The notes beneath the pieces were generated by a model that made no database searches, was not told the origin of the DNA, and saw only the letters and a program-made list of their open reading frames with translations. The position numbers and the translations under genes are program-made. A stretch of 39,069 bases of DNA from Methanobrevibacter sp. (lineage in GTDB: Archaea > Methanobacteriota > Methanobacteria > Methanobacteriales > Methanobacteriaceae), in assembly GCF_017410345.1 (NCBI RefSeq), contig NZ_JAFQQZ010000014.1, positions 1 to 39,069 on the forward strand, given 5' to 3'. This document shows, one piece after another, positions 33 to 34,701 of the stretch. Position 1 is the first letter of the stretch; every line of letters begins with the position of its first letter.

Positions 33-323
33 ATGCTAAAAATAGATGAATTCCGAATGGAAATGGAAGAGTCAAAAAGGATCTACACAGAAGAGCTAAG
101 AAAATTCAGCGAAAAATTCGATTTTCTGGGAGATTTCACCATTGTGGAAGAGCCGGACATTGATACAGTTGACTATATCTATCATTTCAACAATCTGAAT
201 GGAACCAGCAAGGAGATCCTAAATTCAGCACGCAATGAAATATATAAGCATATGGTCAGATTTTCAAAATCAAATGGAATCGATGATTTCAGCAGAAATG
301 CTTATATATCCTTTAAGAGGTGA
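33..323 (+). CDS. Small hypothetical protein
   Basis: This 96-residue soluble protein has no recognised family. It is rich in Glu, Lys and Asp, with no signal peptide, membrane segment or cysteine motif. The first 35 residues look helical and may form a short coiled coil. The start is well supported: GGGAGGTGA at 21-29 sits just before ATG 33. Its stop codon lies inside the GGTGAT ribosome binding site of the next, very short frame (328-363), which is the tight spacing expected of an operon. The sequence upstream is outside the window, so its operon may begin earlier. The coding call is solid, the function unknown. Confidence 0.7.
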   Translation: MLKIDEFRMEMEESKRIYTEELRKFSEKFDFLGDFTIVEEPDIDTVDYIYHFNNLNGTSKEILNSARNEIYKHMVRFSKSNGIDDFSRNAYISFKR

Positions 324-390: not shown

Positions 391-987
391 TACGAAATAA
401 TTATAATATTACAAGTCCACCATATCATTGAGATCAAATCATAAATTACGAAACCATTATAATATTACAAAATGATTAAAATATTGACTTAATATCGTAA
501 ATTACGAAGTGACTACAATTTTACAAGTTCACCACAATATTGACATCAAATCATAAATTACGAAATCATTATAATATTACAAAATCACTACAATATTGAC
601 TTAATATCCTAAATTACGAAACCATTATAATATTACAAAATCACTACAATATTGACTTGAAACTGTAAAAAACGAAATGAAAACAATATTACAAGTTCAC
701 TACAATATTGACCTCAAATCGTAAATTACGAAACCATTATAATATTACAAAATGATTAAAATATTGACTTAATATCGTAAATTACGAAATAAATATAATA
801 TTGACCTCAAATTGAAAAATTAAAACTAAAACGTAAATTACGAAATAAATATAATATTAGCCTAATCTCACAAAAAACGAAACCATTATAATATTACAAG
901 TTCACCACAACATTGACCTCAAATCATAAATAACGAAACGACTACAATTTTACAAGTTCACCACAATATTGACCTCAAATCATGAAT
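391..987. repeat. Tandem array of 56-bp units built from three ~19-bp subunits
   Basis: The landmark TACG (or AACG) falls at 391, 447, 503, 559, 615, 671, 727, 783, 839, 876 and 932: exact 56-bp steps except one 37-bp step. Units 447 and 727 are identical over 56 bp, while others differ at scattered positions. Each unit divides as 19 + 19 + 18 bp. The first two subunits match at 15 of 19 positions in unit 615. The short unit at 839 keeps the first and third subunits and lacks the middle one. Dyads sit in or between subunits: TAATATTA, CAATATTG, and TCGTAAATTACGA at unit junctions. There is no invariant repeat with unique spacers, so this is not CRISPR. Most of the gap 364-1151 is this array; no gene is visible in it. 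A protein-binding or nucleoprotein site is plausible by inference. Confidence 0.9.
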
Positions 988-1070
988 AGCTAAAGATAAT
1001 TTCTTGTTTGTGGAATGATGAATGAATTTTTTTATTGTTATATCATTATTATATGAAAACTAAATAGATA

Positions 1071-1080
1071 TTTATAAATA
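1071..1080 (+). promoter_or_regulatory. TATA box of the HEAT-repeat gene
   Basis: TTTATAAATA, about 70-80 bases before the start at 1152, fits an archaeal TATA box. It would put transcription start near 1100 and leave a leader of about 50 bases ending in GGTGAT. It lies just beyond the repeat array, so array-bound protein could affect this promoter. The call rests on sequence alone. Confidence 0.4.
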
Positions 1081-1151
1081 CATTCATAAACAAACTCCCA
1101 TTTAAGTAGTTAATGCTAAAAAAGACTAGAGAATAGTTATTAGGTGATAGG

Positions 1152-2213
1152 ATGGGCTTATTTGACAAACTAAAAAAGAATAAGTGGGATGATAAAGACC
1201 CACAGGTAAGAATGGAAGGTATTGAAGAACTTCTAAACAGCGATAAAAAGGATGAGGATAAACAGAAAATTCTAAGAGGAATTGCAGAAAATGATCCAGA
1301 CAGTGACATAAGGATAATGGCTGTCCAAAATCTGGATATACCACGGCTATTTGAAGAGATTATCCTGAATGATCCTGACTGGAAAGTAAGAATGGCTGCA
1401 GTTGAAGGACTAAAAAAAGATATAATCTACTTTAGAGAAGAATTTGCAGACGAAGAAGCTTATGTGGACCATTACGATGTCAATAAGGAATATATAGATT
1501 TCCTTGAGGAGGTAGGACAAAACGATGAAAGCAGTGAAGTGAGGGACGCTGCAAATAAGATTGTCAATGACCCGTATTTAAACAAAAACGCATCAGATAA
1601 AATGCAAGGCCTTCAAAAGAGTGATATCAGGAAGATCAGCTACACTGTCGTTGACGTTTCCAAGAACACTGAAAGGAATATTGTCCTGACTCAAAATGAT
1701 AATTTAGAATACACTTATGAAGCAGAATCCGTCAAGGAACTATTGGATTGCTGCTTTGGCGGTGACATAATCACAATCACCTATGACAACTCCAGCGGAA
1801 TCAACAATGAGAATCATATGATAGTGGATTACAATGTCCTAGACAAGCAAGTTCCTTTCCCTAATAAGATACCTATAGATGGAACCAATTTTGATAGAAT
1901 CATAACTTATGAGAACATAGATGCCCAAAACTTTACAGAGAGCGCCTCCCTATCCGAAAGTGACAAGGCCTACAATCAGATGGTGATACCTCTTGTAAAG
2001 GCATGCCTATACAGCAAGAACCGAATGTTTTCAGTTGCGGTTGGTGATGAGATAAGATTAAGTGAAATGGATTTCGAAGGAGGAGTTCCAGACCTATCCG
2101 AAGCCATGTCAAATCTGACAAAGGATCTCAAATTCAAAGTCAAGAAAATCGAATTCATATGCAGAAAGGTAAATGAACTCCCTAAGTCAGATAACATGAC
2201 TCTCTATAGGTAA
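1152..2213 (+). CDS. HEAT-repeat domain protein
   Basis: 353 residues, probably cytoplasmic. The N-terminal half (about residues 10-140) reads as HEAT-like helical repeats, with phrases such as DPQVRMEGIEEL, DSDIRIMAVQNL, DWKVRMAAVEGL and SSEVRDAANKIV; such repeats usually bind protein partners. The C-terminal 200 residues look alpha/beta and are not recognised: no catalytic motif, signal peptide or membrane segment is evident. The start has GGTGATAGG directly before ATG. It stands after the 56-bp array and 77 bases before the zinc-ribbon gene on the same strand, so the two may be co-transcribed. The HEAT call is fairly sure, the role unknown. Confidence 0.75.
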   Translation: MGLFDKLKKNKWDDKDPQVRMEGIEELLNSDKKDEDKQKILRGIAENDPDSDIRIMAVQNLDIPRLFEEIILNDPDWKVRMAAVEGLKKDIIYFREEFADEEAYVDHYDVNKEYIDFLEEVGQNDESSEVRDAANKIVNDPYLNKNASDKMQGLQKSDIRKISYTVVDVSKNTERNIVLTQNDNLEYTYEAESVKELLDCCFGGDIITITYDNSSGINNENHMIVDYNVLDKQVPFPNKIPIDGTNFDRIITYENIDAQNFTESASLSESDKAYNQMVIPLVKACLYSKNRMFSVAVGDEIRLSEMDFEGGVPDLSEAMSNLTKDLKFKVKKIEFICRKVNELPKSDNMTLYR

Positions 2214-5252: not shown

Positions 5253-5738
5253 TTAATTTAAGCTATCCAAAATAACCCCTACAGGACTATCCTCTAAATC
5301 CACATCTAAAGGACCCTTATAATTGATCACAATCAGCTCCTCACCATTGTCACAGAAATACAAAATTCCCCTTTGATACTCCTGATTGTACCAATTCTCC
5401 TCTATATCAAAATCCCCTTTGGTGTAATTGGTCCGATATGTGAAGTCATACATTGACTTTTCAAGGGAATACCTCAATACATCCCTATCCGTATCATGAT
5501 CCATAGCTGAAATGGAAATTGTATGATATCTATCACTCTCAAGGAGAACAAAGTTATCGGATTGATTTGCAATATGATATCCATCTGGAATGGTAAAATT
5601 AGTATTTAACTCAGTAGGATTGGTCTGAAAGCTAGAAATAGCTAAAACACTACAAAATAAGATTAGTATCAAACCAACTATAATAAAAATTTTTTTATTC
5701 ATGTTATCAAAAAAAGAAAAGGGAATAGATGTCTCCAT
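5253..5738 (-). CDS. Secreted or membrane-anchored small protein, paralogue 4 of 4
   Basis: Up to 161 residues, last of four tandem related genes. ATG 5738 directly follows the stop codon of the preceding gene, but by comparison with its paralogues the natural start is probably the ATG at 5702, giving MNKKIFIIVGLILILF, a signal or anchor segment. Neither ATG has a clear ribosome binding site, so coupled reinitiation from the upstream gene is likely. The mature part carries the family pattern: F-x-IPDGYHIANQSDN near the start, a run of beta-type sequence, then GDFDIEENWYNQEYQRGILYFCDNGEELIVI. The family has no function I can name. It probably works at the cell surface. Confidence 0.65.
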   Translation of the reverse strand: METSIPFSFFDNMNKKIFIIVGLILILFCSVLAISSFQTNPTELNTNFTIPDGYHIANQSDNFVLLESDRYHTISISAMDHDTDRDVLRYSLEKSMYDFTYRTNYTKGDFDIEENWYNQEYQRGILYFCDNGEELIVINYKGPLDVDLEDSPVGVILDSLN

Positions 5739-6200
5739 CTATTCTAAAGAACTAACAACCTGATAAGCAGGATTGTCATCTGCTTGAGGAAGATCCTCTG
5801 AGTCAGGTATTCCAAGAGCCACTAGAACAGGAGTTCCTGATCCGTCATCACAGATATACATGTATCCTTTAGTGTCCATATAGCTGTAAGTGGATTGGTC
5901 CACATTGAAGCTTCCTGATTCAAAGCTAGTCTCATCTGCAAACTTGCATCCCTGATTGTCAAGAAGTGACTTGAAGATGTCAAGGTCGCTTACTGAATCC
6001 AAAGCATATACAATTACGGAATGGTCATCATCAGCTTCAAATGCCAACATGTTGTCAGCCTCATCAGCAATCTGATAACCCTCAGGTATGTCAAATGTAT
6101 AGTCTCCCAATGAAGCATAGTCGTCTTCAGCTGCAATGGCTGTCATGCTTCCTACCAATATCAAAAGCATCAAGCTTAAAAATATGTATTTAAATCTCAT
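5739..6200 (-). CDS. Secreted small protein, paralogue 3 of 4
   Basis: 153 residues. The N-terminus MRFKYIFLSLMLLILVGSMTA is a signal peptide ending at AIAAED. The exported part follows the family pattern: DYTFDIPEGYQIADEADN, a middle VIVYALDSVSDL strand region, then GSFNVDQSTYSYMDTKGYMYI and CDDGSG. It is strongly acidic. GGTGAT lies just before the ATG. It abuts the next paralogue downstream without a gap. There is no lipobox and no C-terminal anchor, so the product is probably released or held non-covalently in the wall. The function is unknown. Confidence 0.75.
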   Translation of the reverse strand: MRFKYIFLSLMLLILVGSMTAIAAEDDYASLGDYTFDIPEGYQIADEADNMLAFEADDDHSVIVYALDSVSDLDIFKSLLDNQGCKFADETSFESGSFNVDQSTYSYMDTKGYMYICDDGSGTPVLVALGIPDSEDLPQADDNPAYQVVSSLE

Positions 6201-6269
6201 TTTTTATCACCTAAAACATTTTTCTTTTTATTATATAAAAATTTATTAAATCTTAATCTACAATTCAAT

Positions 6270-6317
6270 GAAAAGAGTTTTGGTCAAGGTTTTACGAGCG
6301 AAGCGAGTAAAAGCTTG
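6270..6317 (-). other. Stop-adjacent stem-loop element, copy 1
   Basis: It begins one base after the stop codon of the gene ending at 6319. Read on the minus strand: CAAGCTTTTA, a variable hairpin core (ACTCGCTTCGCTCGT), AAAACCTTGACC, AAAACTCTTTTC. The outer arms CAAG-TTTT and AAAA-CTTG pair around the core. The 24-base block on one side and the 10-base block on the other are identical to copy 2 at 8826-8875, while the core differs. It may act as a transcript-end or stability element, or be a small dispersed repeat. Confidence 0.7.
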
Positions 6318-6318
6318 A

Positions 6319-6783
6319 TTAATAATTATCCTGCAAGGAACTTATAAGCTCCAATATAAGCTTATCCTTGCCATCTGGGAAATCGTCCTCATTCAAGAAG
6401 CTATGAAGGATGTAAACGCGGTCATCTCCATTATCACAAGCGAAGTACAATCCTATAAAATCCTGATATGTAAAACTTGTCTCATTCACATGATAGATTC
6501 CCCTTTGATAAGTGTCAAATGTGCCATTGAATTCATATCCTGCACGTTCATACATGCCAAAAAGCTTATCCGGATCTGTATCCCTAACCATTATGACAAT
6601 GGTCTGATTCTTATCTGAACTTTCCAAAAATGCATACTGGTTGGTTATATTGATGATTTCAAAGTCTTCAGGTACGGTAAAGACCTTATCTCCAATTATT
6701 CCAACATCATCAGATTCCGCAGCTGAAACATTGGATGCCAATACCAGAACCATCAGGAACAAAAACAAAATCTTGTATTTCAT
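6319..6783 (-). CDS. Secreted small protein, paralogue 2 of 4
   Basis: 154 residues. MKYKILFLFLMVLVLASNVSAAES is a clear signal peptide with likely cleavage after SAA. The mature part keeps the family landmarks: GDKVFTVPEDFEIINITNQY, then the IVIMVRDTDPDKL strand region, then GIYHVNETSFTYQDFIGLYFACDNGDDRVYI. GGGGAGT stands before the ATG, with 25 bases to the preceding paralogue. The stop codon is followed at once by the stem-loop element at 6270-6317, which may end this transcript and separate it from the two downstream paralogues. No function is known to me. Confidence 0.75.
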   Translation of the reverse strand: MKYKILFLFLMVLVLASNVSAAESDDVGIIGDKVFTVPEDFEIINITNQYAFLESSDKNQTIVIMVRDTDPDKLFGMYERAGYEFNGTFDTYQRGIYHVNETSFTYQDFIGLYFACDNGDDRVYILHSFLNEDDFPDGKDKLILELISSLQDNY

Positions 6784-6808
6784 TTTCTTACTCCCCTAAT
6801 ATTAAAGA

Positions 6809-7276
6809 TCATTTCTTCTCCATTGAATCCAAGATGTCATTTACATCGAAGTCAGGAGCGTCCATGAAGTATTCGTCCTCACCTGCAGTTCCATGGGTGA
6901 CTACAAGCTTGTCGTCCCCATCCTCACAGATGTACAGGAATCCGTAATATGCATCCTTGAAGTTATAGGTATATTCAGTCACATTGAAGATTCCCTTTGT
7001 TGAATTTCCTTCCTTCTCCAATTCATACCCTTGAGAGGTGAGCCTTTTCAATATCTCCTCATTGTCCATCTTTTCCTTGACGTCTGTTATGGAAAGGGAG
7101 TAGTATTGAACGGAATCCTCCAAAAGGATCACATCATCGCTCTGGTTTGTAATGTTATAGTCTTCAGGGATTGTGAAGCTGTAATCCCCAATTGTCGCAT
7201 CTTCAGCTGAAATGGCTGAAATGCTGCATGCCAAGATTAAAACCATTAAGCATAAGAACAAATATTTAAATTTCAT
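6809..7276 (-). CDS. Secreted small protein, paralogue 1 of 4
   Basis: 155 residues, first gene of the four. I chose ATG 7276 because the in-frame GTG at 7285 lies inside the GGTGAC ribosome binding site. MKFKYLFLCLMVLILACSISA is the signal peptide, cut near ISAEDA. The mature part has YSFTIPEDYNITNQSDD, then SLSITDVKEKMDNEEIL, then GIFNVTEYTYNFKDAYYGF and LYICEDGDDKLVVTHG, all matched in its paralogues. The upstream gap (7277-7691) carries two 16-bp palindromes that may control this operon. The products are probably extracellular or wall-associated; the role is unknown. Confidence 0.75.
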   Translation of the reverse strand: MKFKYLFLCLMVLILACSISAISAEDATIGDYSFTIPEDYNITNQSDDVILLEDSVQYYSLSITDVKEKMDNEEILKRLTSQGYELEKEGNSTKGIFNVTEYTYNFKDAYYGFLYICEDGDDKLVVTHGTAGEDEYFMDAPDFDVNDILDSMEKK

Positions 7277-7365
7277 TATGGTCACCTAATAATATTTTTT
7301 AAAAATTAGATATAAATAATTTTATTTTTGATTATTTGGTTTAAAAAAAATAAAAAAATAAGTTA

Positions 7366-7444
7366 ATATGATTAAAATAATATGATTGAGATTCGACTTG
7401 TACAAGAAACTAGATTTTTGGAGATTGCATTATTTTAATCATAT
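7366..7444. repeat. 16-bp inverted repeat enclosing a 10-bp palindrome
   Basis: ATATGATTAAAATAAT (7366-7381) and its exact reverse complement ATTATTTTAATCATAT (7429-7444) flank 47 bases that contain the palindrome CTTGTACAAG (about 7397-7406). The arms can extend inward with a few more pairs. The element lies in a 415-base gap that shows no gene. It could be a small RNA or leader hairpin, or a miniature mobile-element remnant. Confidence 0.6.
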
Positions 7445-7541
7445 CGTGTTTGTGTGTTATGATTTGTGTTTTCGAGCGATATAAAAATTGGTTAAAAAAA
7501 AGAAATTTTAGAAATGATTAAAATTTCTTCCTTAGAAAAAA

Positions 7542-7589
7542 TATAACAATTGTTATAATTCTCTATACTATAATATAACTATTGTTATA
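7542..7589. promoter_or_regulatory. Two palindromic operator-like sites 32 bp apart
   Basis: TATAACAATTGTTATA at 7542-7557 is a perfect 16-bp palindrome. TATAACTATTGTTATA at 7574-7589 is the same with one changed base. Their spacing is 32 bp, about three turns of helix, so dimers bound to both would face the same side. They lie 266 bases and more before the first secreted paralogue. This layout suits a dimeric repressor; the regulator is not identified. Confidence 0.55.
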
Positions 7590-7635
7590 TATAAACTTTT
7601 CCATAAAAAGCAGATAAGAATTTCAATCCAATTGG

Positions 7636-7657
7636 AATATTGATGTCAAATCGTAAA
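7636..7657 (+). repeat. Single partial copy of the 56-bp array subunit
   Basis: These 22 bases (starting AATATTGATGTCAAATCG) match the second/third-subunit junction of the 56-bp units at 20 of 22 positions. It is the only related piece noticed outside the array in this window, 6.6 kb away. It ends 34 bases from the broken nuclease gene. Confidence 0.5.
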
Positions 7658-7691
7658 AGCAAAATTGTTTAAAAAAAATAATTAATTGTTC

Positions 7692-8561
7692 TTATTCGTT
7701 AACTATCTTTTCAATGTCTTCCAATGTGCAACCTTCGCTGATCATCTTTTTTATAGAAGATTTTAATTCAGACATTCCTTTAACTCTACCTTCCTCTATA
7801 CCTTCACCATGCCATTTTTCATAGCAGTACTGTTGAATTACTTCTACAACACCTGGGCTTAAATTTCCAAAATCCATATAATCACCAAAAAATCTTAAAA
7901 ACTCATCCTTTCCGTACCAAGTTTGAAAATAATTTAAATAAATATTTAAAATTTCATTAAGCTTCTCTGTGGACAAATTTTCAATTTCATTTAACAGCCA
8001 TATGCATTCCACCAAAACTTTCCTCTTATGCTTAATGTCTATAATTGGCAAAAGCTTTAGTGCAACTATATCAGTCCCAATTAACTTTTCTTTATTCTTT
8101 ATTTTTGATTTTAAAGTATTTAAAGTTTTATTTTGGTCTTTAGCGGTTAACGATATGACAAATATATAAAACTGGTTTAATAAATTAGTTTTAAACCTAA
8201 TGATATGATTTCGTTCTTCCTTTAGGCTAACAATAAAGATATAAACCGGTTTCTTAAAATCTTCGGCCAGTTTAGATGAATACCTTAAACATTTCAATAT
8301 CACATCAAGAGTGATATCCTGTGATTCGAATTCAAGATCCACAATTACATTTTCATTGGTGGAAACTGGAAAATCTGTCAGGCTTTTTCTTAAATCCCCG
8401 CCGATATGCTCTCCGGAAAGTTTTTCCTTGAAAGTGAATGGAATGCCTAAATATTCAAAAAAATCATCTACATCTTCATTTGCGATCAGCTTAAAGCTGC
8501 CATCATAAATTTGATGGACAATCTTATCACAACCTATATTTTTTTAATCCCATAAAACCAT
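7692..8561 (-). pseudogene. Rpn-like PD-(D/E)XK nuclease, broken by an early stop
   Basis: The reading frame is continuous from 8543 to 7692 and encodes a protein of about 284 residues beginning KNIGCDKIVHQIYDGSFKL. There is no usable ATG, GTG or TTG before GTG 8342, which lies within the catalytic core (NENVIVDLEFES). In the same frame further upstream, ATG 8561 gives M-V-L-W-D and then TAA at 8546-8544. Alternatively, dropping one base from the run of seven A's at 8539-8545 (six rather than seven) would join ATG 8553 to the frame. So the gene carries either a nonsense mutation or a homopolymer slip. The C-terminus (EGIEEGRVKGMSELKSSIKK) resembles the tail of Rpn/PDDEXK_2 recombination-promoting nucleases. 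Family assignment is moderate, the disruption clear. Confidence 0.65.
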
Positions 8562-8825
8562 GGGATTTAAACATTCATGAATGTATGTACTTAATTTTAT
8601 TTTTAATGATATATATAGTCTTTGTTAAATCAAAAAAGAATTTTACAACCTTAAATCAATATTTTAAGCATTTAAAATATTTTAAAATTAGAGTAATATT
8701 TTAATAAGAATAGAAAAAACGATCAGAAATCAATATTATAATTGATATGGAAATTAAAAAATAGTGATTTGAAATTATGCAAAAAAATAATCAAAAAAAG
8801 TAAAAACAATTTCACTAAAAGTAGT
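8562..8825. other. AT-rich gap without a gene
   Basis: No coding frame or RNA gene is visible. A 14-bp perfect palindrome, ACATTCATGAATGT, lies at 8571-8584, just upstream of the broken nuclease gene, and could be an operator for it. The rest is low-complexity A/T sequence between two minus-strand genes. Confidence 0.5.
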
Positions 8826-14069: not shown

Positions 14070-14170
14070 ATGGTGAAATTGAAAAATTATAATGAAATAA
14101 AAAAAGTATAATTATATTGAAAAAAATAGAAAAAGAGAAAAATTTATGGACTGAAGTCCATAAAATCAAA

Positions 14171-33968: not shown

Positions 33969-34475
33969 TTAACTGATTTTAACAAATACCTTATTCTTGC
34001 TTTCAGACTTTCTGGAAAACACAAGATCATAATCAATGATCTCATCATCTTCAGTCATTTTTACAGGTGCATCAGAGAGGGAATATTCTCCAATCTGCTT
34101 ACCATTCATATGGCTTATGTCCTTGATTACCTGATTGATGACGGACAATTCATCTTCATTCAAATCGATTGAAGGCTCAGTTACTGAAAAATACCTGTTC
34201 ATCACCTTTCCGCAAGGCAATCTTCTTTTTCCCAATCTCACATTATTCTCCTCCACCAGTTCCTCTATGGCTGATTCGAAGTGAATTGGAACAGGGCCTC
34301 TTTCCATCTTTCTGTAACTTTCATTTGTTATGGATTTCTTATGAAGCTCATAATGGTTGAAGTCTGAAAAATACAATAGCTTATGGAGGACTGTCCTTCC
34401 AACAGTGTTTCTAAAACCGCATTTATATATGATGTAATGCAAGACCATCTTGAACTTTTCTTCCATGAACTCCAT
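33969..34475 (-). CDS. Panacea-domain (DUF4065, SocA-like) protein without visible toxin partner
   Basis: About 168 residues from ATG 34475, with GGATGGT before it; ATG 34484 and TTG 34505 are less likely. The domain is recognised by KMVLHYIIYKCG, VGRTVLHKLLYFSDFNHYELH, then SYRKMERGPVPIHFESAIEELVEEN: the usual order of helices in Panacea/SocA proteins, which act as antitoxins or chaperones for proteins to be degraded. Toxin genes normally lie next to it, but the neighbours are a DUF2162 gene downstream and a UPF0147 gene upstream on the other strand. It therefore appears as an orphan. The tail has several basic residues (SRKSESKNKVFVKIS). Confidence 0.75.
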   Translation of the reverse strand: MEFMEEKFKMVLHYIIYKCGFRNTVGRTVLHKLLYFSDFNHYELHKKSITNESYRKMERGPVPIHFESAIEELVEENNVRLGKRRLPCGKVMNRYFSVTEPSIDLNEDELSVINQVIKDISHMNGKQIGEYSLSDAPVKMTEDDEIIDYDLVFSRKSESKNKVFVKIS

Positions 34476-34701
34476 TTGAACCATCCCTTGAATTAAAATA
34501 AGCAATTATTATTAAACCAATATATAATCTTATTTTATCCATTTTAATATAAATCATTTCTTATTTTACTAACAATATGGCATAAATATATATACTTTGA
34601 AAATTATATTTTATATTGTTATAGACTATTTACTTTTTTTGAAACTGATTTATGCTTACTAGATGATATTTTCAAAAATTGATGAATAGGGAGGAATAAT
34701 T

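Follow-up and report, generated by a model that had tools for sequence, protein, structure and literature searches.

Near the start of the window, the 39,069-bp stretch of DNA that was analyzed here, lies a tandem array which is a long, degenerate member of a family of 19-bp ladders; it has a 19-19-18 rhythm and is the longest local example. Judged by pattern searches, the ~19-bp subunit of the array is part of a dispersed family restricted to Methanobrevibacter. We consider it probable that the array is an over-long version of the upstream ladders specific to this genus, and that it would serve as a cooperative protein-binding array controlling transcription. A search of the open-access literature, with subscription journals mostly outside its scope, returned no description of a 19-bp ladder, and within that literature the exactly 19-bp-stepped ladder is a previously undescribed element.

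The array and its counterpart in a sister species

The window stands at the start of contig G000:C14 (39 kb), part of a 1.84-Mb Methanobrevibacter-type genome. The 56-bp phase of the array, claimed in an earlier note on this DNA, was recovered in three ways. The anchors (391, 447, 503, 559, 615, 671, 727, 783, 839, 876, 932, and 988) are separated by 11 steps, 10 of 56 bp and 1 of 37 bp (839 to 876); TRF returned periods of 56 (388-802 and 868-988) and 168; and the autocorrelation of 381-800, compared with dinucleotide shuffles, was high at lags 56 (z = 18.6), 112 (z = 18.1), and 168 (z = 17.4). At short lags the same comparison gave z values of 5.4 (lag 19), 4.3 (lag 37), and -0.1 (lag 18). 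Every third subunit is 18 bp long, which makes the unit 56 bp and not 57.

In the consensus, subunit 1 agrees with subunit 2 at 14 of 19 positions; the earlier note had counted 15 of 19 for unit 615. The 37-bp step had been read as the loss of a single middle subunit, and this reading stands, unit 839-875 being subunit 1 plus subunit 3. One point is to be corrected: the unit before it, 783-838, is also abnormal, with 52-64% identity to the other units and the same subunit order as unit 313 of the G016 array described below. Units 447 and 727 were again found to be identical at all 56 bp, the units in between being 71-91% like them. In its own genome the array was alone of its kind by BLAST (the next match was 57 bp long, E = 2e-6); it is therefore not generic low-complexity AT sequence, a possibility that the earlier note had wished to see checked genome-wide.

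Table 1. Features of the window, with related peptide loci elsewhere
Feature	Position	Strand	Remarks
96-aa ORF upstream of array, no assigned function	33..323	+	contig starts at base 1
Main array	391..987	+	~31 subunits, 18-19 bp each, grouped in 56-bp units (19+19+18); 56-bp consensus TACGAAATCATTATAATAT-TACAAGTTCACTACAATAT-TGACTTCAAATCGTAAAT (three subunits)
Ladder pattern CAATWTNACNNNNTNANNNCAATWT (19-bp step), exact matches in array	516..540, 684..708, 945..969	+	
Odd 56-bp unit, subunit order 1-3-3'	783..838	+	common to the G016 array
37-bp unit without middle subunit	839..875	+	37-bp units at corresponding place in G016
Conserved promoter block	1048..1120	+	TATA-like TTTATAAATA at 1071-1080; 90% identical in G016
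HEAT-repeat protein gene downstream of array	1152..2213	+	Pfam HEAT E = 6e-10
Rpn-like (PD-(D/E)XK-type) gene behind second ladder	7680..8507	-	profile search
Short degenerate ladder, second in window	8639..8737	-	AATATT-like cores at 8737, 8700, 8681, 8663, 8644
Third short 19-bp repeat, TGAAATTGAAAAAGTATAA, 2.7 copies	14074..14124		intergenic; TRF
Hydrophobic peptide loci	L002 1682-1756; L054 5248; L056; L058; L160; L193; L194; L214	+ (L002)	L002 copy: G000:C42:6255-6332

Among the 60 relatives searched, one strong match was found, a colinear array in a genome of the same genus (G016:C32:28756-29298), which was also the only one of the 18 same-genus relatives to give a long BLAST match. The G016 array has the same orientation and a similar length, keeps the 56-bp phase, and shows the abnormal 1-3-3' unit and, after it, 37-bp units, arranged as in the window, and the region around both arrays is largely syntenic (histone, hisG, FAH, pyrB). 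Because the phase, the odd units, their order, and the synteny are in common, the two arrays are orthologous, and the odd units are old and not the product of a recent deletion. Several G016 units share letters specific to that species, which argues for homogenization between units; together with the identity of units 447 and 727, this supports the copying between units that had been suspected.

The surroundings of the two arrays are partly different. The window array is flanked by the 96-aa ORF, for which Pfam gave no match above the cut-off, and by the HEAT-repeat gene, both on the + strand. The TATA-like box of the latter lies at ~80 bp and the gene itself at ~165 bp past the end of the array. 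The G016 ortholog is bounded on both sides by gene 3' ends: a gene for a secreted protein and one for a zinc-ribbon protein converge on it, with no TATA-like box found between them, while the HEAT promoter block is kept in G016 with no array upstream. It follows that the relation between array and HEAT gene is neither old nor fixed and that this array does not belong to any one promoter. In the window genome the HEAT gene is a candidate target, which the array may control.

Two further features of the region were observed. Four tandem paralogs encoding secreted proteins of ~155 aa occupy 5253-7285 (-) of the window; 12 of the 19 genomes in the genus encode relatives, and such relatives adjoin the array in G016. 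The intergenic stretch 7351-7607 is 76% conserved in G016 (L016 5132-5436) without an obvious ORF, and possibly represents a non-coding RNA.

A family of ladders with a strict 19-bp step

Weak BLAST matches of the array pointed to other places where CAATWT-type cores follow one another at ~19 bp in short runs. We counted such runs in G011, a genome in a single contig of 2,937,203 bp with cdc6-1 at its start (putatively M. ruminantium M1), where a three-core pattern at an exact 19-bp step had 67 matches versus 1 in the backwards control. The two-core pattern (core CAATWTNAC...T.A...CAATWT, exact 19-bp step) had 146 matches in G011 and 5 in the window genome, where the control gave 1; three of the five are exact matches inside the array. 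Across 139 genomes of the family there were ~700 two-core matches (summed table), nearly all in the genus of the window and one other genus (g5), versus ~7 in the backwards control and 6 when the pattern was re-spaced to a 20-bp step. In a GTDB-based collection of 257 Gb, all 28 stretches matching the three-core pattern came from Methanobrevibacter. More than 30 ladder loci are carried by G011 (genes outside the window were called by heuristic scripts), and three of its ladders (873667-873932, 77867-78151, and 2734079-2734325), as well as L220 72-210 of G006, form 57-bp higher-order repeats of three 19-bp units each, parallel to the 56-bp unit of the window.

Pairs of units found with a matrix in 600 kb of G011 lay 19, 38, 57, and 76 bp apart and at essentially no other distance, and almost no pairs were obtained from the reversed sequence; for the core alone, the counts were 61 pairs at 19 bp, 9 at 18, and 6 at 20. 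Adjacent 13-bp linkers had a mean identity of 62%, against 58% for random pairs, and none were identical. Being near-random, the linkers argue against the ladders being fresh duplications, and since neutral copies so diverged should have gained length changes, the spacing looks selected. A core held at exactly 19 bp across Methanobrevibacter while the linkers drift lends good indirect support to the regular ladder of protein sites that the earlier note had envisaged.

Other statistics were weaker: exact-pattern ladders are few in the window genome, and tests without a motif gave little signal in it. Simple counts of CAATWT pairs in 433 kb of this genome showed no excess at 18-19 bp, lag spectra from exact k-mers or plain identity had too much noise in 80%-AT DNA, and a strict regular expression for a promoter-proximal unit found almost nothing. 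A windowed lag test of the own genome ranked lag 19 first, with neighboring lags also high, and nine regions upstream of Rpn-like genes gave z = 4.4 at lag 19 but z = 4.7 at lag 30. Scored with the G011 unit matrix, the array reached a total that was marginal over shuffles; its link to the family is carried by the exact-pattern matches.

The window contains a second ladder, short and degenerate, whose core steps, read directly from the sequence, are 37, 19, 18, and 19. It is followed by a TATA-like box, AACAAAGACTATATATA, at 8617-8612 (-) and has a weak BLAST match to the array (8642-8685); its lag-19 score in 38-bp windows was not high on its own.

Ladders, promoters, and the genes behind them

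The intergenic regions that hold the 34 G011 ladders are divergent in 13 cases, tandem in 20, and convergent in 1, the expectation from intergenic bases being 21% divergent, 69% tandem, and 10% convergent; in other Methanobrevibacter MAGs the ladders were divergent (13), tandem (10), convergent (2), or at contig edges (9). For G011 and the MAGs together, strict TATA-like words were oriented outward, with the ladder upstream of the TATA, 35 times versus 20 times inward. Many of the distances to these words were tight (18-21 bp on one side in the MAGs, 28-30 bp on the other side in G011), and at several MAG loci a box, CTTTTATTTCAAACAAAAA-CTATATTTA, came directly after the ladder. The orientation of the cores with respect to the gene was mixed (12 same and 8 opposite among the G011 tandem cases). 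Location upstream of genes points to transcription control and away from origin or centromere roles.

The number of cores differed at orthologous promoters: that of a pilin-like gene has at least 2 cores in G000 C46 versus 9 to 12 units at G011 318377, and that of a TctA-like membrane protein has 2 in G017 and 16 in G011. A ladder accompanies the promoter of a 25-aa peptide in G000, G004, G011 (twice), and G017. At gatA-type and hemD-type promoters, compared in two MAGs each, the cores persist and the linkers change.

Rpn-like genes were over-represented behind ladders, with 7 of 10 G011 profile matches lying directly behind one, the profile itself having been built from ladder-adjacent genes. 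The name is based on weak TIGR01784 matches (E = 0.0016 and 0.005 in Pfam/NCBIfam searches) and an IEFQ motif in common. The Rpn-like gene behind the second window ladder matched a ladder-preceded G011 gene with a phmmer E value of 2e-14 and has one in-frame stop within the matched stretch. Another Rpn-like PD-(D/E)XK-type gene, at G000:C18:25998-26849, is likewise unseen by Pfam, and an isolated ladder-like fragment, AATATTGATGTCAAATCGTAAAAGCAAAATTG, lies at 7630-7665 of the window, with the secreted-protein cluster on one side and the Rpn-like gene on the other. Ladder-adjacent genes also gave matches to Panacea, to RhuM, and, weakly, to Bro-N. By eye, window 33969-34505 (-) is a relative of a SocA/Panacea-type protein that stands behind a ladder in MAG locus L078.

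Ladder-adjacent loci further include a family of hydrophobic peptides of 25-40 aa (e.g., MKREEKDVLRIFLEVIKIVILMLKD and MKFDRNEIITILLELVKIIILMIKD), which resemble type I toxin-like peptides. Eight genomes of the genus contain clear members by profile search (E below 1e-4), and the genes have a conserved leader, TTGAAGGTTTTTATTGCTTAAATAAAAATA, between the TATA and the ribosome-binding site. The 19-bp ladder was present at all five copies in G011 and at those in G000 C42, G004, and G017, the G004 ladder consisting of only two cores exactly 19 bp apart; it was weak or absent at the copies in G008, G015, G016, G000 C45, and G007.

From the spacing and placement of the ladders we infer protein binding and its cooperativity, and the following course of events is proposed. 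Each ~19-bp subunit (core CAATWTTAC or AATATTGA-type) would be one site for the same putative DNA-binding protein, and neighboring molecules would pack side by side at the fixed 19-bp step. Such packing would create a cooperative nucleoprotein stretch beside the TATA boxes and so set promoter output. The ladder would grow or shrink as units are gained or lost in tandem or converted, its copy number thus tuning the response. An effect on transcription is likewise presumed, as is continued action of the window array on a promoter. Repression appears the more likely direction of this putative effect, over activation, because many of the target genes look toxic or mobile.

A bolder proposal, which we put forward tentatively, is that a lineage-specific protein polymerizing at a strict 19-bp step silences or gates a regulon of risky genes; ladder length would be a setting that evolution can adjust, and the window array its longest local form. 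The regulon would comprise the Rpn-like nucleases, the toxin-like hydrophobic peptides, Panacea/RhuM/Bro-N-type genes, and surface genes. Should the reading as a cooperative array hold, the ladders would represent an undescribed architecture of transcription control common to dominant gut and rumen methanogens, with a ready diagnostic (the core at a 19-bp step) and a defined list of target promoters. Orthologous genes would supply natural series of copy number, and the very small hydrophobic peptides would be a family linked to the ladders; the binding protein could be found by affinity purification, and the regulon could be tested.

Competing explanations and known systems

The serious rival at the array locus, although in our judgment rather unlikely, is a neutral satellite, that is, an old regulatory ladder left without its promoter, which slippage and unequal exchange then amplified and which persists as a 56-bp tandem repeat without function. 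The homogenization of units within each species would suit such an origin, as would the different genes that flank the array in G000 and G016 and the unique long satellites reported earlier to be scattered in M. ruminantium (PMC6749651). It accords poorly with the fact that two species have preserved the array, odd units included, with its colinearity, its orientation, and roughly its length, and with a subunit step and core that match Methanobrevibacter ladders which look selected.

It is improbable that the array is a chromosome-organizing site of centromere-, nucleoid-, or insulator-like type, at which a 600-bp ladder would nucleate a large nucleoprotein body with a role away from promoters. 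Its unusual length, the single long copy in the genome, and the convergent neighbors in G016 agree with such a role, but subunits of this kind occur near promoters at tens of places per relative genome, and a long match in 1 of 18 same-genus relatives is a poor fit to an essential segregation site. No ParABS, SegAB, or plasmid rep gene was found among the neighbors of the array (a HEAT protein, a zinc-ribbon protein, a Schlafen-type helicase, and the 96-aa ORF), the left side being bounded by the contig end, and nothing in the data points to the centromere-like role that the earlier note had listed.

A CRISPR-like, coding-repeat, or structured-RNA element is very improbable. Tandem 56-bp units could suggest one, and some 57-bp ladders in relatives do give long open frames, but each 56-bp unit shifts the frame, and whole units repeat, with no constant repeat set apart by unique spacers, in agreement with the earlier remark that the array does not look like CRISPR. 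No cas genes were noticed among the ORFs of the window; scans with Rfam and for tRNAs returned no relevant match, the one Rfam match being sub-threshold and outside the array. Cdc6-bound origins carry repeated boxes, and the repeats of the array are AT-rich as well. Nevertheless, the chance that it is a replication origin with Orc1/Cdc6 boxes is negligible, and a role as main origin is ruled out by the place and sequence of the true oriC, since cdc6-1 with upstream TTTTACACTTGAAA boxes lies on another contig (C23), this box is absent from the array, and the oriC of M. ruminantium is directly upstream of cdc6-1 (PMC2812497).

Regarded as putative sites for a transcription regulator, the ladders resemble the tandem operators of archaeal and bacterial transcription factors, in which fixed-step sites stand beside the core promoter and vary in number; they differ in a rigid 19-bp step kept over up to 15-30 sites and throughout Methanobrevibacter, the binding protein itself being putative. 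The iterons of plasmid origins and partition sites, with repeats of ~19-22 bp, are close in repeat size and are direct repeats bound side by side, as the ladders putatively are, whereas the ladders are chromosomal, lie at dozens of dispersed loci beside promoters, and have no adjoining replication or partition gene. The origin recognition boxes of archaea (mini-ORB TTTACACTTGAAA of Methanobacteriales) are also AT-rich repeated boxes, but the sequence and place of the ladders are different and the true oriC is elsewhere. Long-period tandem repeats are shared, finally, with the non-coding satellites of Methanobrevibacter, of which 36 unique long-repeat examples in M. ruminantium were called mutually unrelated (PMC6749651); unlike these, the 19-bp ladder links more than 30 loci of G011 to one another.
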